Below, in pieces: positions 8,717-44,558 of a DNA stretch of 64,000 nucleotides (positions are counted from its first letter, which is position 1; every line of letters begins with the position of its first letter). The stretch comes from Saprospiraceae bacterium (lineage in GTDB: Bacteria > Bacteroidota > Bacteroidia > Chitinophagales > Saprospiraceae): assembly GCA_020628645.1 (NCBI GenBank), contig JAHDES010000003.1, positions 62,001 to 126,000 of the forward strand, read 5' to 3'. The notes under the pieces are model-generated. The model was not told the origin of the DNA. It worked only from the letters and a program-made list of their open reading frames with translations, and did not search any database. A program made the position numbers and the translations under genes.

Positions 8717-10123
8717 ATGGCTCAACACAATTTCAATAACCCAAATACTCTTCCAAGTCGACTTTCCGAGTACGAGTACATGTCACAAAAGGGAACGGTA
8801 GGTTTCTTTGAGGAAAAGGTATTTTTAGACTTCGTAAAATACTACGAACAAGAGGATGCACTTGATAAAGCACTAGCTGTTATAGATCATGCTTTAGAGC
8901 AACATTCCTACTCTGCCAATCTACATGTGTACAAGGCTCGTATGCTCATGGAATTCAAAGAAGAATCTCAAGCCTTAGAATTTTTAAATCGCGCACATGC
9001 TTTATCTCCATCAGATGTTGACATACAAATCTTACGTTCCGAGGTACTGACTTTTCTTGGGCATCATGAGGAAGCATTAGTTGCTATTGAACATGTAAAT
9101 CAACAAATAGATCAACTCCCAGAACAACTTTATTTGTGTAGAGCCTACATTTATGAACAACAAGCTAATTTTGACGCTCTCTTCCTTGAATTACAACAAT
9201 ATCTTTTGTTAGATCCACATGATGAAGAAAGCCTAAAACACATTATGTTTTGTGTAGAAGTCACCGAAAAATATAAAGAAAGTGTTCAATTTCATCTAAC
9301 GCTAATTGATAAAGCCCCATATTCTTACATGGCTTGGTGTAATTTAGGTCATGCATATGCTGCTATAGAAGATTATGTAAATGCCGCTGATGCTTTTGAA
9401 TACGCTTTTTTGATTAAGGGTAAATTTGTACATGCATATAAAGCATTTGCAAAAATGTGTTTTAAATTAAAGGACTATGGTCGTGCACTTCGGGCATTTG
9501 AAGACTTATTAGATCAGTTAGAAACACCTGATGCTGATTTATTAACCAATATTGGAGAATGTTATGAACATCTCCATAAATTTGAATTAGCACATATTTT
9601 CTATAATAAGTCAAAAAAAGTAAATCATCAATCTTCTTATAATTATTATAGAATTGGAGAGTGTTATGTCAAGCAACAACTTTGGTCTAAAGCGATAAGT
9701 GCATATAAAAAAGCCTATAAGCTAGATGATCGAAAAGAAGAATTTCAACTGGCACTTGCCGATGTTTACTTTCAAATTGGAGATGATGAGAATGCTAAGT
9801 TCTATTTCCAAAAAGCCGTAGATACTGCTCCTGACACTCCTATTTGTTGGGTTCAGTATGCTAGTTTTTTAATGGATATTGGTGCTTTAGAAGATGCGCT
9901 TGCCGTTTTAGAAGAAGCAAATGATTATGGCATAAATGCCCATCTTCTTTATTGCAAAGTTTCCTGTCTATTTCTAATGAATAATAGATTGGAGGCGATC
10001 CAATTATTACGACAAGCTCTTGATGATTATTATAATCAGCATGATATTTTATTTCAATTTGCACCTGAAATTGAAGGAGATTCAGATATAGCAGCACTCA
10101 TAAATTTATACAATCGAAATTAA
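8717..10123 (+). CDS. Tetratricopeptide-repeat protein
   Basis: 468 residues, no signal peptide or membrane segment, so cytoplasmic. It is built of helix-turn-helix TPR units over almost its whole length; clear examples are SYMAWCNLGHAYAAIEDY, FVHAYKAFAKMCFKLKDY, NYYRIGECYVKQQLWSKA and EEFQLALADVYFQIGDDE, with the usual G/Y/A/A pattern. Such proteins act as scaffolds for protein complexes; no partner or enzymatic domain is visible. It is flanked by a long AT-rich upstream region and a perfect 16-bp terminator hairpin, so it is probably transcribed alone. Confidence 0.9.
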   Translation: MAQHNFNNPNTLPSRLSEYEYMSQKGTVGFFEEKVFLDFVKYYEQEDALDKALAVIDHALEQHSYSANLHVYKARMLMEFKEESQALEFLNRAHALSPSDVDIQILRSEVLTFLGHHEEALVAIEHVNQQIDQLPEQLYLCRAYIYEQQANFDALFLELQQYLLLDPHDEESLKHIMFCVEVTEKYKESVQFHLTLIDKAPYSYMAWCNLGHAYAAIEDYVNAADAFEYAFLIKGKFVHAYKAFAKMCFKLKDYGRALRAFEDLLDQLETPDADLLTNIGECYEHLHKFELAHIFYNKSKKVNHQSSYNYYRIGECYVKQQLWSKAISAYKKAYKLDDRKEEFQLALADVYFQIGDDENAKFYFQKAVDTAPDTPICWVQYASFLMDIGALEDALAVLEEANDYGINAHLLYCKVSCLFLMNNRLEAIQLLRQALDDYYNQHDILFQFAPEIEGDSDIAALINLYNRN

Positions 10124-10147
10124 CCCTTTTATATCTTAAATCTTCTC

Positions 10148-10192
10148 GCAACAGCCTCTAAATATTAACTATTTAGAGGCTGTTGCTTTATA
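10148..10192 (+). terminator. Strong intrinsic terminator
   Basis: A perfect 16-bp stem (10148-10163 pairing with 10171-10186, 7-base loop) is followed by TTTATAT. It lies 25 bases after the TPR gene stop. Confidence 0.9.
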
Positions 10193-10350
10193 TACATATA
10201 TGAAAAAAAATCAATGGCATATTTTTTGACTACAGTATACTATACTCCATAAAACAAGCTCATTTAGCCTGTTTCCCCATTTTTTCCTCCCTCATATAAT
10301 TTTCAACTTAAACTATGCCCATTTACTATCTAAGTTAAGCTAAAACAATC

Positions 10351-11157
10351 ATGAAAAGTTACACATCTACATTCATCTTTATATTTATACTGTTGTTAGG
10401 AATTACTTCTTGTAGGAATAAACCTGAAACTCCTGAACATGTAGCCATTTCTAATCTAGATACAAATGATCAAATTGTGGTAGGAGAAGAAATAAATAGT
10501 TTCATCCAATCCAACCCTTCTAAATTTGATGTATTAAGTTCTGAAGAATACAGTTTAGCATATGAATACCTTAACTCTTTTTTACTTACTCTAATACGAA
10601 CTGCTGAAGTAGAACGTAGGAGTGCCTTCGATTGGAAAGTGATCATATTAAAAGATGATAGTCAAACTTCTGCTTTCACTTTACCTGGAGGATATATTTA
10701 TTTGTATACAGGATTATTAAAATTTTTAAAAAACGAAAGTGAGTTAATAAGTGTGCTTGCACATGAAATTTATTATGCAGATTCTGATTTAGCTGCCAAC
10801 GCTATATTTGAAGTTATGGATGGAAACATGTTAAGTGATTTATCGCTTAGAAAAGATGTAGGTGATATATCTCAGGAACTATTTAATTTTAGAGATCTTT
10901 TATTTGATGAACTCGATATAATAAAAGCAGATAATTTTTCTATTGATGTGATTTGCCCTTTTCAATATGATGCCAATGGTCTTTACTCTTTAATGTTAGA
11001 AGCGGGAGGCTCAGGATCTTCTTCTATTGATTGGTTTCAAGTGCGTCCTATTACGACCATTCGCATGAATAATCTTATTGAACGAGCTGCTATTTGCGGA
11101 GTCGATGAAGCTACTTTTAATGAACGTTATATGGAATTTCTTGCAAGTTTACCTTAA
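10351..11157 (+). CDS. M48-like lipoprotein with degenerate zinc site (probable pseudo-protease)
   Basis: 268 residues with a lipoprotein signal ending GITSC (Cys 21). The block SAFTLPGGYIYLYTGLLKFL followed by ELISVLAHEIYYADSD is that of M48 (BepA/LoiP-type) metalloproteases. The zinc motif HExxH is altered: it reads HEIYY, so His 138 and Glu 139 remain but the second histidine is Tyr 142. The downstream ExxAD element that normally gives the third ligand reads IIKAD. Two of three zinc ligands are therefore absent and catalysis is unlikely. The rest of the frame is intact, which suggests a retained non-enzymatic role in envelope maintenance, for example as a chaperone or adaptor. No partner gene is adjacent. 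Confidence 0.75.
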   Translation: MKSYTSTFIFIFILLLGITSCRNKPETPEHVAISNLDTNDQIVVGEEINSFIQSNPSKFDVLSSEEYSLAYEYLNSFLLTLIRTAEVERRSAFDWKVIILKDDSQTSAFTLPGGYIYLYTGLLKFLKNESELISVLAHEIYYADSDLAANAIFEVMDGNMLSDLSLRKDVGDISQELFNFRDLLFDELDIIKADNFSIDVICPFQYDANGLYSLMLEAGGSGSSSIDWFQVRPITTIRMNNLIERAAICGVDEATFNERYMEFLASLP

Positions 11158-11251
11158 CACAATGTCTTCATAACTTTGACTTAAGGGGTATTTATTTAGC
11201 TAAATCTTACGGATGTTTTTGAAGCCCCTTTTATTTATCCGTTTATTTCAT

Positions 11252-11259
11252 TATATTTG
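11252..11259 (+). promoter_or_regulatory. Bacteroidota -7 box, rimP operon promoter
   Basis: TATATTTG matches the TAnnTTTG -7 consensus of the primary sigma factor in this phylum. It would place transcription start near 11264, about 70 bases before rimP. Confidence 0.65.
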
Positions 11260-11280
11260 CAGAGAATTCATCTCTTAGGA

Positions 11281-11310
11281 GAGGGAACACGACAAGTGAT
11301 TCCCTCTTTT
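11281..11310 (+). terminator. Terminator-like hairpin in the rimP leader
   Basis: GAGGGAA (11281-11287) pairs with TTCCCTC (11300-11306) and is followed by TTTTCATTTT. It lies inside the predicted 5' leader between the promoter and rimP. An upstream CTCTTAGGAGAG segment could form a competing hairpin that takes part of the left arm. This is the layout of an attenuator. Confidence 0.6.
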
Positions 11311-11333
11311 CATTTTAAGGAAACTACCAAAAC

Positions 11334-11816
11334 GTGATAACGTCAAAAATAGAACAACTTTTAAAAGATAAATTTCAAGAAGAAGAATTTATAGATTGTT
11401 TTATTGTTGAAATAAAATTTAATGAGAAAAACAATAAGCTAGAAGTATTTGTTGATAGTGATTCTAGTATGGATTTTTCCAAGTGTAGAAGAATTAGTCG
11501 CTATCTGGAAAGTTATATTGATGAAGAAGGCTGGCTAGGCGAAAAATATACACTTGAAGTTTCTTCACCTGGAATTTCTCGTCCCCTTAAATTAGTTCGT
11601 CAATACAAAAAAAATATTGGGCGAACCTTAAACCTCATCCTAACCCCAGATAACTCAAAAGAAAAAGGAAAACTCATTATAGTAACCGACGAAGCGATCA
11701 CTATTGAACAAGAAGTAAAAATTAAACAAGGAAAGAAAAAAAGAACTGAAATTCACCAAAAAGAAATTCACTACGACCAAATTAAAAAAGCCGTCGTTCA
11801 AATATCATTTAAATAA
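11334..11816 (+). CDS. rimP: Ribosome maturation factor RimP
   Basis: 160 residues, the usual RimP size; the protein is needed for 30S subunit maturation. Starts with GTG at 11334. The N-terminal alpha/beta domain contains VFVDSDSSMDFSKCRRISRYLESYIDE, and the LEVSSPGISRPLK motif before the SH3-like C-terminal domain is diagnostic. It is the first gene of the conserved rimP-nusA-infB cluster, 49 bases before nusA. The leader carries a terminator-like hairpin (11281-11310). Confidence 0.95.
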   Translation: MITSKIEQLLKDKFQEEEFIDCFIVEIKFNEKNNKLEVFVDSDSSMDFSKCRRISRYLESYIDEEGWLGEKYTLEVSSPGISRPLKLVRQYKKNIGRTLNLILTPDNSKEKGKLIIVTDEAITIEQEVKIKQGKKKRTEIHQKEIHYDQIKKAVVQISFK

Positions 11817-11865
11817 ATAAAAAGCTGAGAACATTTTATATTATTCACTTATCAAGACGTAAAAT

Positions 11866-13110
11866 ATGAATTTAGTAGATACGTTTTCGGATTTTAAAAC
11901 GGGAAAAAATATTGACCGTCCTACCATGGTTCGGGTATTGGAAGATGTATTTCGTACCCTCATTAAGAAAAAATATGGCTCAGATGAAAATTTTGATGTC
12001 ATTGTAAATACTACAAAAGGAGATTTAGAGTTATGGCGTGTTCGTGAAATTGTACCTGATGGTGAGGTGACAGACGATAGAAGTCAAATCTCCATTTCTG
12101 AAGCCTTATCTATTGATGAAGATTATGAAATCGGGGAAGAATGTTATGAGCAATTATACTTAGAGGATTTTGGTCGTCGTGCTATTATGGCTGCACGTCA
12201 AACGCTCATTTCTCGGATTATGGAATTGGAAAAAGATGAAATTTATCGTAAATATTCTGAGCGTGTTGGCGATATTGTTCTCGGCGAAGCTCATCAAATA
12301 CTAAAAAGAGAAGTTTTGGTTCTGGATGATTCGACAGGCAATGAATTAGTGCTTCCTCGAAATGAAACAATTCGTGGCGATTTCTTCCGAAAAGGCGATA
12401 TGATTAAAGCCGTAATTAAAAAAGTAGAAATGCGAAACAACAATCCTATTGTTGTTCTTTCCCGTACTGATGAAATGTTTTTGGAAAAACTACTGGAACA
12501 AGAAGTTCCTGAAATAGAAGATGGCTTAATTACCGTCAAAAATATTGTGCGCATCCCTGGAGATCGTGCTAAAGTAGCTGTTGAATCCTATGATGATCGT
12601 ATTGATCCAGTAGGTGCTTGTGTAGGTATGAAAGGTTCAAGAATTCATGGTATCGTTCGAGAATTAAGAAATGAAAATATAGATATCGTTAATTTCACAA
12701 ACAATCTTTCTTTATATATTCAACGAGCTTTAACACCTGCTAAAATCACTAGTATTGATGTTGACCAAGACGGTGCTCGTGCTGCTGTTTATCTCGATCC
12801 AGATCAAGTTTCTTTGGCGATAGGTAAAGGAGGGACAAATATCAAACTAGCAGGTCGCTTGACAGGTTTTGATATTGATGTATTTAGAAACACTGAAGAA
12901 TTTGAAGAAATTGATGATGTCGATTTAGATGAATTCGTAGATGAATTAGAAGGTTGGGTCATTGACGAACTTAAAGGCATTGGTTGTGATACTGCTCGTA
13001 GTGTATTGGATTTGAGTAAAGAAGAATTAGTCCGTCGTACAGATTTAGAAGAGGAAACAGTGATGGATGTACTTCGTATTCTTGAGTCAGAATTTGATGA
13101 AGCACAGTAA
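11866..13110 (+). CDS. nusA: Transcription termination/antitermination factor NusA
   Basis: 414 residues, typical for Bacteroidota NusA. Order: N-terminal RNA polymerase-binding domain (residues 1-125), S1 domain (about 130-195), two KH domains (VGACVGMKGSRIHGIVREL near 245 and SLAIGKGGTNIKLAGRLTG near 315, each with a GxxG loop), then an acidic tail with a short helix-hairpin-helix region (DELKGIGCDTARSVLDLSKEEL). NusA binds RNA polymerase and nascent RNA to tune pausing and termination. It shares the operon with rimP upstream; infB downstream is separated by about 480 bases containing a long hairpin and a promoter-like box. Confidence 0.97.
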   Translation: MNLVDTFSDFKTGKNIDRPTMVRVLEDVFRTLIKKKYGSDENFDVIVNTTKGDLELWRVREIVPDGEVTDDRSQISISEALSIDEDYEIGEECYEQLYLEDFGRRAIMAARQTLISRIMELEKDEIYRKYSERVGDIVLGEAHQILKREVLVLDDSTGNELVLPRNETIRGDFFRKGDMIKAVIKKVEMRNNNPIVVLSRTDEMFLEKLLEQEVPEIEDGLITVKNIVRIPGDRAKVAVESYDDRIDPVGACVGMKGSRIHGIVRELRNENIDIVNFTNNLSLYIQRALTPAKITSIDVDQDGARAAVYLDPDQVSLAIGKGGTNIKLAGRLTGFDIDVFRNTEEFEEIDDVDLDEFVDELEGWVIDELKGIGCDTARSVLDLSKEELVRRTDLEEETVMDVLRILESEFDEAQ

Positions 13111-18273: not shown

Positions 18274-18774
18274 ATGGAGTTGCAGGAAGGAAAAGACCGA
18301 TTCATTCAATCTTGGGGTACATTAGGCTCTAGTTGGGGCATCAATCGTACAATGGCACAAATTCACGCATTATTACTTATCTCACCTGAATCGCTTAGTG
18401 CAGAACAAATACGCGACGAACTCAAGATTTCAATGGGAAATGCCAATATGAATGTTCGTGCATTAATTGATTGGGGATTGGTTTATAAAGAACTCAAACC
18501 TGGACATCGTAAAGAGTACTTTAAGGCAGAAAAAGATATGTGGGAAGTCGTCAAAAAAGTAATTATTCAACGAAAGAAAAAAGAACTCGAACCCCTTACC
18601 CGTGTACTTAATGATGTATCCAATGTAGACGGTGATTCTCCTGCTGCTGAAGAATTTGAAAAGGTCATTCGAGATATTAAAGTCTTTTCTAGTAAAGCCG
18701 ATTCTACCTTAGATCGTATTACGAATGCCGATTCCAATTGGTTATTTGGTTCTTTTATCTCAATGATAAAATAA
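18274..18774 (+). CDS. GbsR/MarR family transcriptional regulator
   Basis: 166 residues. The N-terminal FIQSWGTLGSSWGINRTMAQIHALLL segment is typical of the GbsR subgroup of MarR-like regulators, followed by a winged helix (SAEQIRDELKISMGNANMNVRALIDWGLVYKE) and a wing ending KPGHRKEYFKAEKD. The C-terminal half is helical and probably dimerises. GbsR proteins repress osmoprotectant or transport genes in other bacteria; the target here is unknown. Its stop codon is 2 bases from the stop of the convergent TolC gene. A palindrome at 18222-18242 is a candidate self-operator. Confidence 0.9.
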   Translation: MELQEGKDRFIQSWGTLGSSWGINRTMAQIHALLLISPESLSAEQIRDELKISMGNANMNVRALIDWGLVYKELKPGHRKEYFKAEKDMWEVVKKVIIQRKKKELEPLTRVLNDVSNVDGDSPAAEEFEKVIRDIKVFSSKADSTLDRITNADSNWLFGSFISMIK

Positions 18775-18776
18775 AC

Positions 18777-20027
18777 CTAAAAGCTTGGTAGGGTTTCTTC
18801 TAAATAGTTGGTATAAGGTATCGCTACCATTTTTCCACTAATTTGAAGTAGATCAACATATTTTTCTATTATTTCGATTTTCAAATCGAGTAATTGCTGT
18901 TCTTTTTTCAGCAAAATCTCCTGTAATTCTAATAAAATTAAGGGATCTTGATCAGCTTGTTTTTGATATTGCTCTAAGGCATAAAACGCTTGACTTGATC
19001 TTATTTGCTCTCCTAATGCTTTTCTTTCTGCGAAAAGTAATTGAAGTTCTTTTTTATGTTCCAAAAGTTGAACTTGAATAGTTTGTTCCAGTATCGTTTT
19101 TCTATGTGTATTTTCTAATTGTTCAAAACGAATATCATTTAATTGCGCCAAATTATTATTTGGAAAAGGCAATCTGATTCCTATCCCTACTGAGAATTCT
19201 TGCCATGGCACTAAGTCTTTCCTATTCGCATAACGCAATTGAATATACTCAATTGTATTTTCATTTTCTGCTTCTTCTAATTCATAACTAGCTTCATCTT
19301 CTTCTATACGCATTTGACGATCTTGTAAGGCTGGATGATTACTTTCTATACTATTTATCGTTTGAAAAATCTCAGCAATTCGTTCAAGGGAAATGAAATT
19401 TGATGTATCTAATTGTGTATTGGTTTCTCCTAAAAAAACACCTAATTCTTCTTCTATTTGTTGCACTTTTTGGTTTAAACGATCAATTCTATTTTGATTT
19501 TCAAGAACGGCTTCTTCTGCTTTTACCAAAGATAATATGGGAACATTTATCATAGCAGCAGCTTGTTTTCGCAATACCGAGTACCGATCCTCTACTAATA
19601 CTTGATATTGTTCTTGCCACTCCAATTCTTGCAATACCTCCCAATAATCCACCATAGTATTATAGCGATCATTCAAGGCATCTGCTATACTTATTCTCGT
19701 ACTACCTGCCATTCGATTGATCTTCTTTTGATGTAGATTATTTTGGGCAGTACGTTCTTTTGCTTCATGAAATCTTGCTCGTAAGGTATATTCTTGACGA
19801 CTTAAATCAAAGCGATCTGTTTCTGTACGAAATTCCAATTCATCAATTACAGGCAATTGAAAATATTCTTTTTCTAAGAATGCTACTTTTTGACTATCTA
19901 ATTGAACGGCTAAGGAATTTCTAGCACTTGCTAAAATTGAATTGGAGGATATTTTCTCCTGACTTACGCCATAGAAGGGTACTATCAAACATATTACCAA
20001 ACAATATAAAAAGGAATTTTTACTCAC
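18777..20027 (-). CDS. TolC-family outer-membrane efflux protein
   Basis: 416 residues with a signal peptide (ends GVSQ). The body is long alpha-helical coiled coil with two outer-membrane-efflux-type repeats; the stretch EEAENENTIEYIQLRYANRKDLVPWQEFSVGIGIRLPFPNNN is the strand/turn seen in TolC-like channels. It should form the trimeric outer-membrane and periplasmic exit duct. It is the last gene of a three-gene minus-strand operon and overlaps the HlyD gene by 4 bases (ATGA type), so the two are translationally coupled. Somewhat divergent and shorter than classical TolC. Confidence 0.85.
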   Translation of the reverse strand: MSKNSFLYCLVICLIVPFYGVSQEKISSNSILASARNSLAVQLDSQKVAFLEKEYFQLPVIDELEFRTETDRFDLSRQEYTLRARFHEAKERTAQNNLHQKKINRMAGSTRISIADALNDRYNTMVDYWEVLQELEWQEQYQVLVEDRYSVLRKQAAAMINVPILSLVKAEEAVLENQNRIDRLNQKVQQIEEELGVFLGETNTQLDTSNFISLERIAEIFQTINSIESNHPALQDRQMRIEEDEASYELEEAENENTIEYIQLRYANRKDLVPWQEFSVGIGIRLPFPNNNLAQLNDIRFEQLENTHRKTILEQTIQVQLLEHKKELQLLFAERKALGEQIRSSQAFYALEQYQKQADQDPLILLELQEILLKKEQQLLDLKIEIIEKYVDLLQISGKMVAIPYTNYLEETLPSF

Positions 20028-21070
20028 TTCTTCGTTGATTGCGTAAGAAAAGGAAGATAGGAGTTATTATCAGTATTCATCAAATTAAGCACTACTTTTT
20101 CCTTCTGTAAAAAAGGGTTTTCAGGAGGCAATTCAATTAATACTTCTCTACCATACATTTTATAATCTTTTACTTTTCGAAGCCGTTCTGGAATTTCTAC
20201 AATTCGCGTTCCCAACCCCACAACCGCTCCATTTCCTTGTTGCGTCGGATGCAAGCTAGAAGAAATCTGAAGGGTATCGCCCAAATTCACTTTTAAAATC
20301 AAACTTTCATGTACATAAGCTTTCACTAAGGTAGGCGTTCGTTCATAAAAAGAAATTAGGGTGCTAAAAGACGATTTATGTTCTCCTTCTATTCCATGAA
20401 TATTTCCAATCAATCCATCGGTAGGTGCGTAAATAGACAGTTCTTTTTGTTCATCAGCAAAATACGCTTGTTCATTTTTTAATTTATCAACTTCTACTTG
20501 TACTGGAATTCCCAAAGCTGCAATTTCTTTTTTATACTGTTCAATTTGCACATCTAAGGGTGCTAAACTCCATTCCAATTCTTTTTGTAGACTAACAATT
20601 TTTGGGTGTGTTTGAATTATATCCTCAGAAGGATTACTACTTATACTTTTAAGATCTTTAATGAGTTGTTGATTGAGTTGTATTTCGTTTTGTATGGTTT
20701 GAATTTGATGGGTGGTCTCTGCGATTTTTTCATTTCGTCGTATTTCTAATTGACGGATTTCATTTTCGAGATTTATTTTTTGTTCTCGTTGCTTGAGTTG
20801 CAATGTTTTAATATCAAAGTCAATTTCTTTTGTTTTCAATGCTAAATCAGCATGTTCTACAACCATTAACAAATCGCCTTTTGCAACTTCCTGCCCAGGG
20901 GTCACCAATACTTCTTTAATCAAAACGGAACGATCTTGATTAATTTCTGTCTCCTTATTGTCTGCAAAACCATAAAAAGTAGTGGGTTGTTGGACATATT
21001 CTTTGTTGATGTAATACACCCCCAATAGTCCTAAAATAGCAACAATGTATAATGGATTAAAAAAACGCAT
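20024..21070 (-). CDS. HlyD-family periplasmic adaptor (membrane fusion protein)
   Basis: 348 residues. An N-terminal membrane anchor (YIVAILGLLGVYYI) is followed by a biotinyl-lipoyl half-motif (VLVTPGQEVAKGDLLMVVEHADLALKTKEI), a coiled-coil hairpin of about 120 residues, the second lipoyl half (ELSIYAPTDGLIGNIHGIEGEHKSSFSTLISFYE) and a beta-barrel domain. This is the standard adaptor that links an inner-membrane exporter to a TolC duct. It starts 19 bases after the DUF4956 gene and overlaps the TolC gene. No ABC or RND pump gene is adjacent. Confidence 0.92.
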   Translation of the reverse strand: MRFFNPLYIVAILGLLGVYYINKEYVQQPTTFYGFADNKETEINQDRSVLIKEVLVTPGQEVAKGDLLMVVEHADLALKTKEIDFDIKTLQLKQREQKINLENEIRQLEIRRNEKIAETTHQIQTIQNEIQLNQQLIKDLKSISSNPSEDIIQTHPKIVSLQKELEWSLAPLDVQIEQYKKEIAALGIPVQVEVDKLKNEQAYFADEQKELSIYAPTDGLIGNIHGIEGEHKSSFSTLISFYERTPTLVKAYVHESLILKVNLGDTLQISSSLHPTQQGNGAVVGLGTRIVEIPERLRKVKDYKMYGREVLIELPPENPFLQKEKVVLNLMNTDNNSYLPFLTQSTKK

Positions 21071-21089
21071 TTCTAATTCTTCTCAAATA

Positions 21090-21782
21090 TTAAATAGTTT
21101 CTATCGCCTCTGTAAATTCTAATTGAACCACACGCATATTCTCGACCTCTCGCAATTGATTCACCAAATTCCATCCATCCATTTCTTGATTCAATTTTAA
21201 TTGATACTCATATTCTACTAATTTTCGTTTTTTGTCACTATTGAATAAACGATAACGTCGTACGGCATATTTTCGACAATATTGTTTCAATAAATTTTCT
21301 ATAGAAGAAAAATTATCTGCATCTACTGGAAATTCAAATTTCAATGTGCCAATCAAATTTTGTTGATGACTAAATTTTGTCCATCGTAAGATAAAAGCTA
21401 TGATACAAAAACCTACCGTTCCAATTAAAGCAATGACAAAGCCGTACACCCCACATGCAATACCTGCTGCTAAAGATGAAAAAATAAAGACTATATTTCT
21501 TGGATTCCGTAATGTTGTCCGAAAACGGATAATAGAAAGCACCCCTAGCATTCCTAAACCTGTAGCAATACTATCTCCAATGGCTTGTATCACTGTCGCT
21601 GCCACAATAGAAATAAGTACCAATGCTTGGATAAAATTATCTGGTCGTATAACATCTCTTGTCGTCTTTTCATACGTAAAGACAATCAAAGAAGACAACA
21701 AGAATGCAAATAGAACGGTGAAAAGAATCGTTATAAAAGTAGGATTCTCTGAACTACTTGCTATGGATTCAAAATCAAACAT
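21090..21782 (-). CDS. DUF4956 inner-membrane protein
   Basis: 230 residues. An N-terminal helix (FITILFTVLFAFLLSSLIVF) is followed by about three further membrane segments with the family hallmark GLGMLGVLSIIRFRTTLRNPRN and FSSLAAGIACGVYGF, then a cytoplasmic alpha/beta domain of about 80 residues. DUF4956 proteins are distantly MgtC-like and often lie beside polyphosphate (VTC-type) polymerase genes; their biochemical role is unknown. Here the gene heads an operon with a HlyD adaptor and a TolC duct, so it may be the inner-membrane component of an export assembly. No NTP-binding motif is visible in it. Confidence 0.88.
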   Translation of the reverse strand: MFDFESIASSSENPTFITILFTVLFAFLLSSLIVFTYEKTTRDVIRPDNFIQALVLISIVAATVIQAIGDSIATGLGMLGVLSIIRFRTTLRNPRNIVFIFSSLAAGIACGVYGFVIALIGTVGFCIIAFILRWTKFSHQQNLIGTLKFEFPVDADNFSSIENLLKQYCRKYAVRRYRLFNSDKKRKLVEYEYQLKLNQEMDGWNLVNQLREVENMRVVQLEFTEAIETI

Positions 21783-22075: not shown

Positions 22076-23611
22076 ATGAGAAAATGGATCAATCGATCAA
22101 TGCGATGGTATCTCGCACAACGCTACAAAGGCATTGCGAAATACATGAAACACCCTCATCGGTTTCAACGCGCGCTCTTGACCCAGATTATACAGGCTAC
22201 TAAACATACAGAATGGGGAAAACAATATCAATTCCACAAGATTAAATCTCTTTCTGATTTTTCTCAACAGCTTCCTATCACTGATTACGAACAACTGAAA
22301 CCTTACATCCAACGAATGATGATGGGAGAAAAAGATGTTTTATGGAGTGGGCAGGTTAAATGGTTTTCTAAATCTTCAGGAACAACAAGTGATAAAAGTA
22401 AATTTATTCCCGTTACCAATCAAAATTTAAAACGATGCCATATCAAGGGGACTTGGGATACCATGTCTATTATTTATCATCAACTACCTTATGCCACTCA
22501 ATTTGAACATAAAACTCTATTGATGGGAGGAAGTTGGGAGCATTATAAACCCTATCCTAAAACTCGATATGGTGATGTTTCTGCTATTATGATTCATCAT
22601 ATGCCTGCCGTAGCACACCCTTTTTTTACCCCTGATTTTGAAACCGCTTTACTTCCCGATTTTGAGTATAAAATTGAGAAGATGGCACAAATTGTTAGTC
22701 AGGAAAAAGATATGGTAATGATCGGTGGCGTTCCTACTTGGACAGTCGTTTTATTTAGAAAAATTCTTGAAGTTACAGGAAAAAAAAACATACTAGAAGT
22801 CTGGCCTAATCTTCAGGTGTATACTCATGGTGGGGTGAGTTTTACGCCTTACCGAGAACAGTTTAAGGAGTTTTTACCTTCTGATGAGATCAAATATTTT
22901 GAAATTTATAATGCCTCCGAAGGTTTTTTTGGCATACAACATCATCCTGATGACGACGATATGCTGTTACTCTTGAATAATGGTATTTATTATGAATTTT
23001 TACCTGCTGGAGAATGGCATAAAGATCATCCGCAAGCGATTCCTTTAGAAGAAGTGGAATTGGGTATAAATTATGCCTTAGTGATTACCACCAATGCTGG
23101 TCTATGGCGTTATGTACCTGGAGACACGGTTCAGTTTACCTCTAAATATCCTTATAAAATTAAAATTACAGGCCGTACTAATCAATTTGTCAATGCTTTT
23201 GGTGAAGAAGTGATGGTCTCAAATACGGATAAGGCATTGGCTGAAACTTGTCAATCTTTAAATAGTATTGTAGCCGATTATACGGTTGCTCCCATCTATT
23301 TCAATACCACTAAAAAAGGAGGGCATCAATGGCTAATTGAGTTTGAAAAAACGCCTGCCAATTTGGCTTTATTCAATCAACTTTTAGATCAAAATCTACA
23401 AAAAATCAACTCCGATTACGAAGCGAAGCGTTATAAAGATATGGCACTTGAACAATTAAAAATAACGGTATTACCTCCCAAAACTTTCCAAAAATGGCTT
23501 CGTTCTAAAGGAAAATATGGTGGACAACATAAAGTGCCTCGTTTAAGCAATAGTCGTAAATATGTAGATGATATTTTAGGATTCTCCCAACGACAACGGC
23601 AACAAGTATAA
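22076..23611 (+). CDS. GH3-family acyl-adenylating enzyme (auxin-responsive GH3-like)
   Basis: 511 residues, normal for bacterial GH3-like proteins. The ATP/AMP-binding motif KWFSKSSGTTSDKSKFIPVT (near residue 96), YNASEGFFGIQ (near 280) and WRYVPGDTVQFTSK with KITGRTNQFVNAFGEEV are the three conserved adenylation motifs of the ANL superfamily as seen in GH3. Plant homologues conjugate amino acids to hormone acids; bacterial members probably adenylate an acyl substrate and transfer it to an amine or thiol, but the substrate is unknown. Cytoplasmic. Divergent from the DUF4956 operon. Confidence 0.9.
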   Translation: MRKWINRSMRWYLAQRYKGIAKYMKHPHRFQRALLTQIIQATKHTEWGKQYQFHKIKSLSDFSQQLPITDYEQLKPYIQRMMMGEKDVLWSGQVKWFSKSSGTTSDKSKFIPVTNQNLKRCHIKGTWDTMSIIYHQLPYATQFEHKTLLMGGSWEHYKPYPKTRYGDVSAIMIHHMPAVAHPFFTPDFETALLPDFEYKIEKMAQIVSQEKDMVMIGGVPTWTVVLFRKILEVTGKKNILEVWPNLQVYTHGGVSFTPYREQFKEFLPSDEIKYFEIYNASEGFFGIQHHPDDDDMLLLLNNGIYYEFLPAGEWHKDHPQAIPLEEVELGINYALVITTNAGLWRYVPGDTVQFTSKYPYKIKITGRTNQFVNAFGEEVMVSNTDKALAETCQSLNSIVADYTVAPIYFNTTKKGGHQWLIEFEKTPANLALFNQLLDQNLQKINSDYEAKRYKDMALEQLKITVLPPKTFQKWLRSKGKYGGQHKVPRLSNSRKYVDDILGFSQRQRQQV

Positions 23612-40487: not shown

Positions 40488-43400
40488 TTAAAGTCCCGAT
40501 GCGTCAAATTTACGTGCCACTCCAAACCATTTAATCACACGCTCACCAAGTCCATCTGCATTGATATGAATGAGATAAACGCCACTTGATACAGGAATTC
40601 CTTTATTGTTTTTCAAATCCCACTCAATAGCTGGATTAATTTGACTGTTCAATACTCCTGCATTTGTAACTGATTTTTCAATTTCAGTTTCATTTCTATT
40701 ATATTGACGGATAAATTTACCATCTAATGAATAGATGGTCACGACACATTTTGCAGGAAGATTGGTAATTTTTATAACATTAGAGAATTGATCAATTTCA
40801 TAATCTGAAAATCCATAATATGGATTAGGTACAGCATTGATCATATCTAACTGAGAATTCACTTCTTCATCTGTAGAATTTGCAATGGTTGCTTTATTCT
40901 CTAATTTAAATCTATAGGTAGGATACCCATTTGCTTCATCTGTACCCGTTTCTACTTCATATGGATTGTCAACACGTAATTTCATCGTTACTTCGCTAGG
41001 AATTAATCCATCTGCATATGAAAGAAGTGAAGAACCTTCAATACGAATTGGCATAGCAGACCATTTAATTGGACGATAAGCACTTGCACGAATAATAACG
41101 TTAGTCGCACTTAACGAATTCCTAATATCTGCACATTCATCATATTCCTGATCTGTTACATAAATATAATGATGCCCTCCCATAATAAAACTAAAAGGAG
41201 AAAACTGTGCTCCTAATCCTAGGAAAAATTGTGAAGAAGGATTCCACATCATATCTGCTCCAACTGCTGTTAAATCTTCATATAATTCTGTAGCATCATT
41301 ATCTGGGTCGCAGAACAGTGTTGTACCTATATCTGGGTCACAAGCATAAGAAGAAGCTTCCCCAAAGAAAATATTCAATCGTTTGCCACTTTCAACATCT
41401 ACAGCATACCCTGGAAACCAACCCATACCTGTACCATCTCCATCTGGATCAGGTAAACCGTCGCCATTAGCATCACCTCTACCTACTGAAGGAGCTTCAC
41501 GAAGTTCTAAAGAATTAGCATCACCCTCTGTTGGAATTGGATTAGGCGAAAGATTAGCATCATATACCCAAGGAGATGTTGTTTCTACTACTACACATCG
41601 ACTCCATTTACTCGTATCACTTGTTAATACAATATCAACATTGTTTAAAGAGGATAATGGATTACTTTCATGTACAAAACTTCCAAAGTTACTGTTCATC
41701 CAAGCTGGGGAATAGGTAATACTGGTTGGACTTATCCGATATTCTGAGAGCGTAAATGGACTAAACATCCCCGTACCAAATTGAGAAGAAAATGCCTGAG
41801 AAGGATCTTCATCATTATGCAGTTCTCCAGGTGAAGTTGGTAAATAATTCAACTGTGGTGAAGTATCGTCTGGCAACCAGCCTAACCAAGGTGTTGCTGC
41901 TGGATCAGTGTACTCAAGAGCTTGTCCTATCGCACCATTTTCATTGGTTGTTTTTGCTCCAGCATCATCGGTTTGTGCAATAGAAATAGAGAACCCTGCT
42001 TCGGCAATTAGTTGTTCATTTAAGCGATCTATAGTTCGTTCTGAAGCTATTAAGAAGTCACTATCATCCGCTTTACGTAATTCCCAACGCACTTTATCAT
42101 CTAAGCGATCATTTGACATATCTTCATCAACCATCGATAAAATATATTCTCCATCTTGTACACGTAGAGGGTCGTATACTTTCACCTCAATAGGGGCTTG
42201 ACCTGGCTCATAAGTAATTTCACCATCGAAAGAGCCATCCACCATTGACTCTCGTTCTTCTGTACTAATATCTAAAAAGTTTCCTCCTGCTCCTACACCA
42301 TCTAATCGTGTCACTATAGCACCATCACCATAATAAGAAAGTAAAGATTGATCCGTAATTGGTCGAGGAATAGCTGTTATGACTTGAATATTTCGACGAC
42401 CTGCTAGGTATGGACGTTGTTGTCCTACCTCTGTATTTGCATTAAATTGTGAATAATTATTATAAGCATAGGCGATAGCTAAGAAATAGTATTTTCGATG
42501 ATTAACTAATTTAGGATCACTTGTAGCGAATAAATCTTCTGTAATACGGAAAGTTTTTCGCACTCCTTCATTCTCTCCTTCTACTTGTAATTCTGGTATC
42601 CATACATTAGTTGGACTATCCCCAATTCCTGCGTCAGGATCAGGGTTACCAAAAGGAGACCAGTTATACAATGTACTAGCATCATTTCTTATATCACATT
42701 GAAAAACTTCTTTTGCTTTTTCTGGATCATCCAAATCAGATACACTTACTCCTGGATCTATTACTTGGAATACACGATAACCTTCAAAAACATATTTATT
42801 GTCTTCAATTGTACCCGGTGCACGAAGATCAAGTTCTTGATATTCTTCATTTCCATTATTAGAAACAGGCATTGGTCGATTTGACAAGGTAAAGATAATT
42901 TCTTTATCTAGTTCTACAATACACATATCTGGAGCATCAGGTCCATCTGTAATATCAAAACAGTTGTCAAACAAGGCTTGAGAAATATCATCCGCAAATT
43001 GTAAATCTGCAATATCTGGTCCTGGATAATTTTGATCTGCAACCCAAGGCACTCCAACAATCAACTCATTTACTGCACCTGGGTCGAGACGGAATGGTCC
43101 AGAAGCTTGTAGTGTACGACGGTCTCCGTTTTGAAGGCTTTCAGAATACATTGACCATCCATTTGGATCACTTGGTGAATCTGGAAATACAAATTTTGTA
43201 GGAATTAATCCTCCAAAACCATTTCCACCTTCTGTAATAGGTGAGCCATTTCTCCAAGAACCCGTTAAATATCTATAATATTCTACAGCACCATTAGGAT
43301 CTGTTGTTGCGGGATCTGGATTACCAATTGCACCATTATTATAATAGACAAAAGAAGACATACCCAACTCTATCAAGGTATCAGGAAATTCTCCTACTGC

Positions 43401-44558
43401 CGGTGCTACTAATGTCGTATCTTCTCCATTTATTCTAAATACTCTAGGGCCTAATGGTCCTCTAAAGTAATCTACTCCTAAAATTGGAATATTAGTACAG
43501 TAAGTATTTACCCCACCTTGACAGGTACAACCTGGATCGCCATCTGCTGCGTCTTCATTGTATACATACATCAAACTACGTACGGTATCACAACCTACAT
43601 AGTCATCTACAAAACACCCTAAATCTGGATCAGTCCACATGGCAAAGAATGTACTATCAATACTTTCCACAGCTCGATTAATTAGCTTATATCGTTGGAA
43701 GGTCATATCATTTAGTTGATCATTCGTAGCATAAGCAAAGGCTTGTACTTGTATTTCCATTTGGATAGCATCAGCATTTGTTTCTGTATGAACACCTCCT
43801 GCATCATTATAAATCCAGAAAAACATTTCATCTGGATACTGAGGTTCTGAACAACCACGAATTTCAATAATTGGATAATCCCCAAATTCAGGATCATATA
43901 AACCATTTCCATTTTCATCCCAGAAAGGAGCAAGTCCTTGTACTGTATTAGGTAATTCAAAATCATGGATAGCAAAGAAGTGTTGATTTCCTCTTGCTGG
44001 CCATCCTAGTATATTTTCAGCAATAGATTCCAATTCTACTTCAGGGGCAGGATTTGTAGTGTCTGCTGCTACTGCTGCAAAATTGGCAATATGCAGATCA
44101 ATTTCTGAGCCTAGTACTTTGAATTGCTGATCCCAGTTTTCACAAGTTTCTGCATCAACTGTACCCGTGTTTGGGTCTAGTGGGCCAGGCCAAAAATCTG
44201 TATTACCTGAAGCTGTTCCATAAGTTTGTGCTGCTACTTTTAAGTTTCCTGCTGGATCCACTCCACCAAGCCATACTGCTCCAGCAAAAAGAGAAGAGAC
44301 AGGTGCGACACCAGCTCCAACATTTGGTACAATATAAAGTCCATCATCTCCATCCCACCAAACATCTCCTCCAGCTAGTAAACGAGCCCTAACATTATTA
44401 ATATTTTGGTCTACTTCTGAATCAGCAGGTGCACAATCCATACGATAATTGGCTGTAGCACGTTCACGCTCATGTAAATCGGGATTGATATGCCCCCATG
44501 TTGGAGCTATCACCCAAGCGATGAGCATAAGTAATAAATAATATTTTATCGTTCGCAT
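40488..44558 (-). CDS. Giant secreted protein (1356 residues) with T9SS-like C-terminal region
   Basis: 1356 residues with a signal peptide (MRTIKYYLLLMLIAWVIAPTWGH). No enzyme domain recognised. Acidic Asp/Asn/Gly segments reminiscent of calcium sites recur: DENGNGLYDPEFGDYP (near 220), DANGDGLPDPDGDGTG (near 1040) and CDPDNDATE. The final 100 residues (NAVPNPYYGFSD, IYSLDGKFIRQYNRNE, VSSGVYLIHINADG) resemble the FlgD/T9SS C-terminal fold, but the last residues (KWFGVARKFDASGL) are not a standard sorting motif. It lies between a TonB-dependent receptor and a PorV-like protein with spacings of about 50 bases. This family is often seen with these neighbours in Bacteroidota; its role is undescribed, probably a surface-exposed subunit. 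Confidence 0.8.
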   Translation of the reverse strand: MRTIKYYLLLMLIAWVIAPTWGHINPDLHERERATANYRMDCAPADSEVDQNINNVRARLLAGGDVWWDGDDGLYIVPNVGAGVAPVSSLFAGAVWLGGVDPAGNLKVAAQTYGTASGNTDFWPGPLDPNTGTVDAETCENWDQQFKVLGSEIDLHIANFAAVAADTTNPAPEVELESIAENILGWPARGNQHFFAIHDFELPNTVQGLAPFWDENGNGLYDPEFGDYPIIEIRGCSEPQYPDEMFFWIYNDAGGVHTETNADAIQMEIQVQAFAYATNDQLNDMTFQRYKLINRAVESIDSTFFAMWTDPDLGCFVDDYVGCDTVRSLMYVYNEDAADGDPGCTCQGGVNTYCTNIPILGVDYFRGPLGPRVFRINGEDTTLVAPAVGEFPDTLIELGMSSFVYYNNGAIGNPDPATTDPNGAVEYYRYLTGSWRNGSPITEGGNGFGGLIPTKFVFPDSPSDPNGWSMYSESLQNGDRRTLQASGPFRLDPGAVNELIVGVPWVADQNYPGPDIADLQFADDISQALFDNCFDITDGPDAPDMCIVELDKEIIFTLSNRPMPVSNNGNEEYQELDLRAPGTIEDNKYVFEGYRVFQVIDPGVSVSDLDDPEKAKEVFQCDIRNDASTLYNWSPFGNPDPDAGIGDSPTNVWIPELQVEGENEGVRKTFRITEDLFATSDPKLVNHRKYYFLAIAYAYNNYSQFNANTEVGQQRPYLAGRRNIQVITAIPRPITDQSLLSYYGDGAIVTRLDGVGAGGNFLDISTEERESMVDGSFDGEITYEPGQAPIEVKVYDPLRVQDGEYILSMVDEDMSNDRLDDKVRWELRKADDSDFLIASERTIDRLNEQLIAEAGFSISIAQTDDAGAKTTNENGAIGQALEYTDPAATPWLGWLPDDTSPQLNYLPTSPGELHNDEDPSQAFSSQFGTGMFSPFTLSEYRISPTSITYSPAWMNSNFGSFVHESNPLSSLNNVDIVLTSDTSKWSRCVVVETTSPWVYDANLSPNPIPTEGDANSLELREAPSVGRGDANGDGLPDPDGDGTGMGWFPGYAVDVESGKRLNIFFGEASSYACDPDIGTTLFCDPDNDATELYEDLTAVGADMMWNPSSQFFLGLGAQFSPFSFIMGGHHYIYVTDQEYDECADIRNSLSATNVIIRASAYRPIKWSAMPIRIEGSSLLSYADGLIPSEVTMKLRVDNPYEVETGTDEANGYPTYRFKLENKATIANSTDEEVNSQLDMINAVPNPYYGFSDYEIDQFSNVIKITNLPAKCVVTIYSLDGKFIRQYNRNETEIEKSVTNAGVLNSQINPAIEWDLKNNKGIPVSSGVYLIHINADGLGERVIKWFGVARKFDASGL

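Follow-up and report, generated by a model that had tools for sequence, protein, structure and literature searches.

Tripartite exporters of the EmrAB-TolC, MacAB-TolC and AaeAB kind combine a periplasmic adaptor carrying a membrane anchor and a hairpin, a TolC-fold outer-membrane duct, and an inner-membrane partner encoded in the same operon. The locus described here shares an HlyD-type adaptor, a duct predicted to have the TolC fold, and a candidate inner-membrane partner in the same operon, but its inner-membrane gene encodes a DUF4956 protein of about 230 aa, without ATPase domain and not an RND, MFS or ABC protein. The MgtC family (PF02308), whose members carry an ACT-type C-terminal domain, shares with this protein a distantly homologous membrane region and a C-terminal domain of that type. 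CotH-VTC-DUF4956 gene sets beside pel clusters of Gram-positive bacteria (PMC7112168, PMC12345266) combine a DUF4956-type protein with CotH and VTC-type partners; no HlyD or TolC was found mentioned there as far as consulted, and the present locus has no linked VTC and no adjacent CotH. In yeast, the VTC polyphosphate polymerase/translocase couples polyphosphate synthesis to passage through a membrane; this is an analogy only, as the membrane parts are not known to be related and VTC is absent from this locus. In the literature consulted, no description of a DUF4956-HlyD-TolC system was found.

Gene organization and sequence assignment

The window, a 64,000-nucleotide stretch of a Saprospiraceae bacterium genome (contig JAHDES010000003.1), contains three consecutive open reading frames on the minus strand, encoding a DUF4956 protein (21090-21782, 230 aa), an adaptor (20024-21070, 348 aa) and a duct (18777-20027, 416 aa, GTG start). 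The first two are separated by 19 bases (21071-21089) and the last two overlap by 4 bases (20024-20027), the start of the duct gene overlapping the adaptor stop. The observation made in the sequence-only reading, of a DUF4956-HlyD-TolC operon with this spacer and overlap and no visible pump, is confirmed. The cluster is flanked by a converging MarR-type gene (18274-18774) and a divergent GH3 gene (22076-23611), and among ten further ORFs of the window that were scanned none is a pump.

In Pfam searches, the 230-aa protein matched DUF4956 (PF16316) with an E-value of 5e-15 and 56.1 bits, over the cut-off of 30.6 bits, whereas it scored only 13.2 bits (E 0.12) against MgtC, for which the cut-off is 31.4 bits. 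The MgtC Pfam model caught three DUF4956 genes at 3e-4 to 7e-4, also below its cut-off, and a profile of five MgtC proteins aligned by hhalign with 87% probability and an E-value of 4e-6, although the conserved E-R...K-A-G-R-T stretch of MgtC is not kept in this alignment. The MgtC likeness claimed beforehand is thus real at profile level, as a distant homology and not as membership. The structural model (pLDDT 85.3) has five predicted membrane helices and a C-terminal ferredoxin/ACT-like domain; matches to solved structures cover the ACT-like part and leave the question of solved relatives of the membrane part undecided. Charges fit, weakly, an N-terminus outside and a C-terminus inside; for a streptococcal protein of this type, four segments are reported (PMC12345266). 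Across 47 DUF4956 proteins, G77, R86, R88, F101, G107 and G111 are invariant. Weak profile hits of DUF4956 to a potassium channel (E 0.03 and above) were dismissed.

The adaptor, which has an N-terminal membrane anchor, matched HlyD_D23 with an E-value of 1.3e-6 and 28.3 bits, just under the cut-off of 30, but its profile matched EmrA and MacA in the PDB (best 7.8e-13). Its membrane-proximal part is the most conserved (mean 0.69, against 0.35 for the hairpin, with boundaries set by us). The duct has no Pfam match, including to OEP, and its profile found no PDB sequence, but its model (pLDDT 89.6) matched OprM, TolC and CusC at about 1e-11 over some 415 columns, i.e. over its full length.

The genome encodes a second DUF4956 protein, in a cluster with a CYTH-like protein and the only VTC gene of the genome, so that the expectation stated in the sequence-only reading, that DUF4956 is usually found beside polyphosphate polymerase genes, fits that copy; VTC is absent from the surroundings of the trio. 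The 982-aa protein beside the second DUF4956 clusters by BLAST with a CotH-domain protein but has no Pfam match, and we therefore do not call it CotH.

Conservation of the gene cluster

A lack of conservation of the three genes in relatives had been named in advance as a result that would speak against the exporter reading; it was sought and not found. DUF4956 matches were obtained in 31 of 60 relatives. Of 16 loci with a close DUF4956 (this one and 15 relatives, E below 1e-47), 15 have adaptor and duct after it, while the sixteenth, locus L042, has the adaptor and ends there with its contig; other flanks differ. A scan of genome contigs yielded the best 80 of 578 relatives, which were chosen by likeness to the DUF4956 of the trio and are no random sample; they derive from records labelled Saprospiraceae, Flavobacteriaceae, Fibrobacter and related groups, Desulfobacteraceae, Delongbacteria, Planctomycetota and Halobacteriovorax, and nearly all show the same three genes in the same order.

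For counting, 157 loci (L033-L049, L071-L150, L180-L239) were used, of which 110 had DUF4956 followed by this adaptor. Nine were removed as repeats, eight by matching contig extent and place and L147 without such a check, leaving 101 (16 relatives, 69 scan loci and 16 loci from the phylum sample described below); near-identical loci from different assemblies remain, for example L084/L087 and L047/L149. Of the 101 loci, 98 also have the duct, and the other three (L042, L090 and L137) end at a contig end. Of the relatives and scan loci without the pair, L071 and L110 end at a contig end, and L049, which holds a short, 54% identical DUF4956 without adaptor or duct, is a true exception. In 95 of the 101 loci, the median gaps between the genes are 6 and -1 bases, and distances between the three proteins correlate (r 0.83-0.86), as kinship alone would also give.

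To test whether the adaptor is dedicated, a profile built from 20 adaptor sequences was searched in 198 Bacteroidota genomes, with at most ten candidates scored per genome. It hit 19 genomes at 1e-20 or better, 18 of them below 1e-80, and by coordinates all 19 hits lie next to the separately found DUF4956 gene; as four of the profile rows come from these genomes, 15 hits are independent. In this phylum sample, the adaptor subfamily occurs only beside DUF4956, which favours DUF4956 as the inner-membrane partner over a pump encoded elsewhere. Conversely, of 60 DUF4956 loci of the sample (60 of 65 places, the remainder being two of this genome, one already included and two not retrieved), 37 have an HlyD-type gene, 38 VTC, 54 one or the other, and 23 no adaptor. 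The HlyD label in these comparisons comes from our own profiles; Pfam confirmed HlyD in L226 and L228 but gave no HlyD match for L200, L206 and L208. A second, different adaptor/duct pair also accompanies DUF4956, without VTC, in L227 and on a Hymenobacter volaticus plasmid (L260).

Search for a linked pump

A consistently linked ABC or RND gene was the other outcome named in advance as speaking against the exporter reading, and none was found among the 101 loci. In 725 neighbour ORFs within 5 kb, an ABC motif pattern and a helix count flagged 11 pump-like ORFs in 11 loci; a lower helix threshold flagged 7 of 101 loci within 1.5 kb, one on the same strand; and an ABC-ATPase profile hit 7 of 101 loci within 5 kb, five of these new. 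In total, 16 of 101 loci have any pump-like or ABC gene within 5 kb, of several kinds, with no kind recurring near the trio. The same-strand hits nearest the trio are a citrate-type carrier at 163 bases in L143, an ABC-F-like ATPase (ABC_tran plus ABC_tran_Xtn) at 395 bases in L095, and ABC ATPases at 1.0-1.2 kb in L091 and L038. As a control, eight other OEP loci of this genome were examined: four have an adjacent or fused pump of 11-14 helices, two a membrane protein of 4-6 helices, and two neither. The motif pattern flagged no ABC protein in these eight loci, showing it to be weak for such proteins.

Association with VTC and CotH

The order DUF4956-HlyD-TolC-VTC occurs in 11 of the 101 loci, ten from records labelled Fibrobacter and relatives, Desulfobacteraceae, Delongbacteria and Halobacteriovorax, and one from a Bacteroidota genome. 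HlyD-VTC-DUF4956 orders, with a different adaptor subfamily, were found in many other Bacteroidota loci. In a FastTree phylogeny of 117 proteins, comprising every third trio locus plus chosen ones and rooted at the midpoint, the VTC-less trios (41 leaves, support 0.94) nest inside VTC-bearing adaptor loci, suggesting that VTC was lost; the H1/H2 labels in this tree are noisy. In 34 genomes chosen mostly for carrying the trio, two of which (G165 and G176) carry VTC-DUF4956 clusters instead, VTC is present in 14 and CotH in 34. In 19 VTC proteins, twenty columns, mostly basic or acidic, are kept in 18-19 sequences.

CotH, an ATP-using atypical kinase with likeness to Fam20C (PMC12189002), occurs in 55 of 59 DUF4956-bearing genomes of the phylum sample versus 26 of 139 others (Fisher 6e-24, not corrected for kinship), so that four of the 59 lack it; a control genome, Bacteroides ihuae, has DUF4956 and VTC but no CotH match. 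CotH lies near the trio (same strand, within 600 bases before or 6 kb after) in 25 of 101 loci. Of five such CotH proteins scanned, two carry a type IX sorting tail over its cut-off, one below it and two none. The present genome encodes 13 CotH proteins, none adjacent to the trio; they look secreted, as all begin with a signal-like stretch by eye, some start codons being uncertain, and of ten scanned with Pfam, eight have the sorting tail over the cut-off, one below it and one not. In Streptococcus intermedius, deletion of the MgtC/ACT-type gene SIR_1592 or of the CotH gene SIR_1594 lowers aggregation and changes Pel level, with no mechanism given, while no effect of deleting the polymerase gene SIR_1593 was seen in the parts of that report consulted (PMC12345266).

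Interpretation

The sequence-only reading had proposed either an undescribed tripartite exporter with DUF4956 as the inner-membrane component or a pump encoded elsewhere; the first proposal is partly supported. A one-to-one adaptor, a duct, no regular pump and a small polytopic membrane protein are most simply explained if DUF4956, a distant MgtC relative, is the inner-membrane part of a dedicated envelope-spanning conduit, a reading to which we assign a probability of roughly 0.55. In this view, DUF4956, probably as an oligomer, opens into the adaptor, which docks on the duct. In the fuller form, a VTC protein, a polyphosphate polymerase by family, sits in the same operon, and polymerisation could drive translocation as in the yeast VTC complex; the lineage of this window would have lost the linked VTC and kept the conduit. 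The conduit would serve phosphoryl chemistry outside the cell that also involves secreted CotH kinases, the likeliest cargo being a phosphate-rich anion, i.e. polyphosphate or a phosphoryl donor such as a nucleotide. Our computations demonstrate the conserved operon, the dedicated adaptor, the duct fold, the distant MgtC homology and the gene linkage to VTC and CotH, whereas complex formation, transport, cargo and energy source are inferred, transport by the three proteins not having been assayed. The frequent absence of an adaptor from DUF4956 loci and the absence of CotH beside the trio in this genome weigh against this reading; moreover, as VTC is missing from 20 of the 34 genomes, polyphosphate from VTC cannot be the general cargo, and any cargo there must come from another source. 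If the reading is right, a family of unknown function becomes a new class of inner-membrane component in tripartite export, seen in records of several phyla. It would also provide a testable answer to how secreted CotH kinases obtain a phosphoryl donor outside the cell, and a function for the VTC-DUF4956-CotH gene sets of Gram-positive bacteria. A more specific version, in which the trio is a phosphoryl-donor exporter, carrying polyphosphate where VTC is present or a nucleotide-type donor across both membranes for the phosphorylation of extracellular proteins by secreted CotH kinases, a bacterial counterpart to supplying the Golgi kinase Fam20C, is not excluded but we consider it unlikely.

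Among the alternatives, it is possible, though unlikely, that adaptor and duct serve an ABC, RND or MFS pump encoded elsewhere, with DUF4956 as its accessory or regulator. Adaptors and ducts can be shared, two of the eight control OEP loci also showed no adjacent pump, and the ACT-like domain suggests regulation; but the adaptor subfamily is found only beside DUF4956 in the phylum sample, two different adaptor subfamilies pair with DUF4956, and no linked pump recurs. Less likely still, DUF4956 could act like MgtC as a regulator of phosphate or ATP homeostasis, with an unrelated or signalling role of the adaptor-duct pair at the envelope. The distant MgtC homology and the ACT-like domain are compatible with this, and an MgtC-type role is discussed in PMC12345266, yet it does not explain a dedicated adaptor and duct kept together in order across records of several phyla. 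We regard as least likely that the system modifies or exports a surface polysaccharide, as hinted by the position of cotH, polyphosphate polymerase and DUF4956 genes next to pel clusters in Gram-positives (PMC7112168) and by the streptococcal mutant phenotypes: in a clustering of flanking genes, in which not every recurrent cluster was named, no polysaccharide synthase was identified among the recurrent families checked, those identified being CotH-type, VTC and scattered ABC ATPases.

Other flanking genes

A fixed fourth gene was sought in the flanks and not found, with DUF6580 preceding the trio in one family only. A fusion of adaptor and VTC was considered for the long adaptors of L137 and L144, but these show no VTC domain. 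A phytase-like beta-propeller beside some loci was matched only below cut-offs. Two relatives carry the trio beside a Rep3 replication gene.

Neighbouring genes of related loci

In locus L215 and at the same place in related loci of family f41, a DUF6580 membrane-type protein of 182-195 aa (5265-5813 in L215) precedes the DUF4956-HlyD-TolC genes, and in L215 these are followed by a short-chain dehydrogenase; the DUF6580 protein is possibly an extra partner, in that family only. In the two nearest relatives, L034 (4206-5546) and L035 (5946-7337), a Rep3 replication-initiator gene lies directly before the trio, which may therefore reside on a plasmid or chromid there. In three further loci, long adaptors of 627 and 589 aa (L137, 8782-10665, and L144, 8694-10463, respectively) and a separate 318-aa protein between adaptor and duct (L140, 9792-10748) were found, with L144 and L140 showing weak phytase-like/beta-propeller matches below the cut-off.

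A shared uncharacterised protein family was found near four HlyD-VTC-DUF4956 loci (members at L051, 10341-11660; L052, 4425-5804; L053, 5059-6039; L056, 9692-10615), for which Pfam searches returned no family over its cut-off except a sorting tail in L052. DUF4956 genes without an adaptor lie near a purple-acid-phosphatase-like gene in locus L195 (3612-5054), or near a Porin_O_P match and CotH in locus L199 (6537-7571), again phosphate-related neighbours. Beside the second DUF4956 gene of the genome (locus L060), a 982-aa protein (8969-11917) is encoded between the CYTH-like gene and VTC; it clusters by BLAST with a CotH-domain protein but has no Pfam match. Within the window, a 1356-aa ORF (40488-44558) next to a TonB-dependent-receptor-like gene has no Pfam match at 1e-3.
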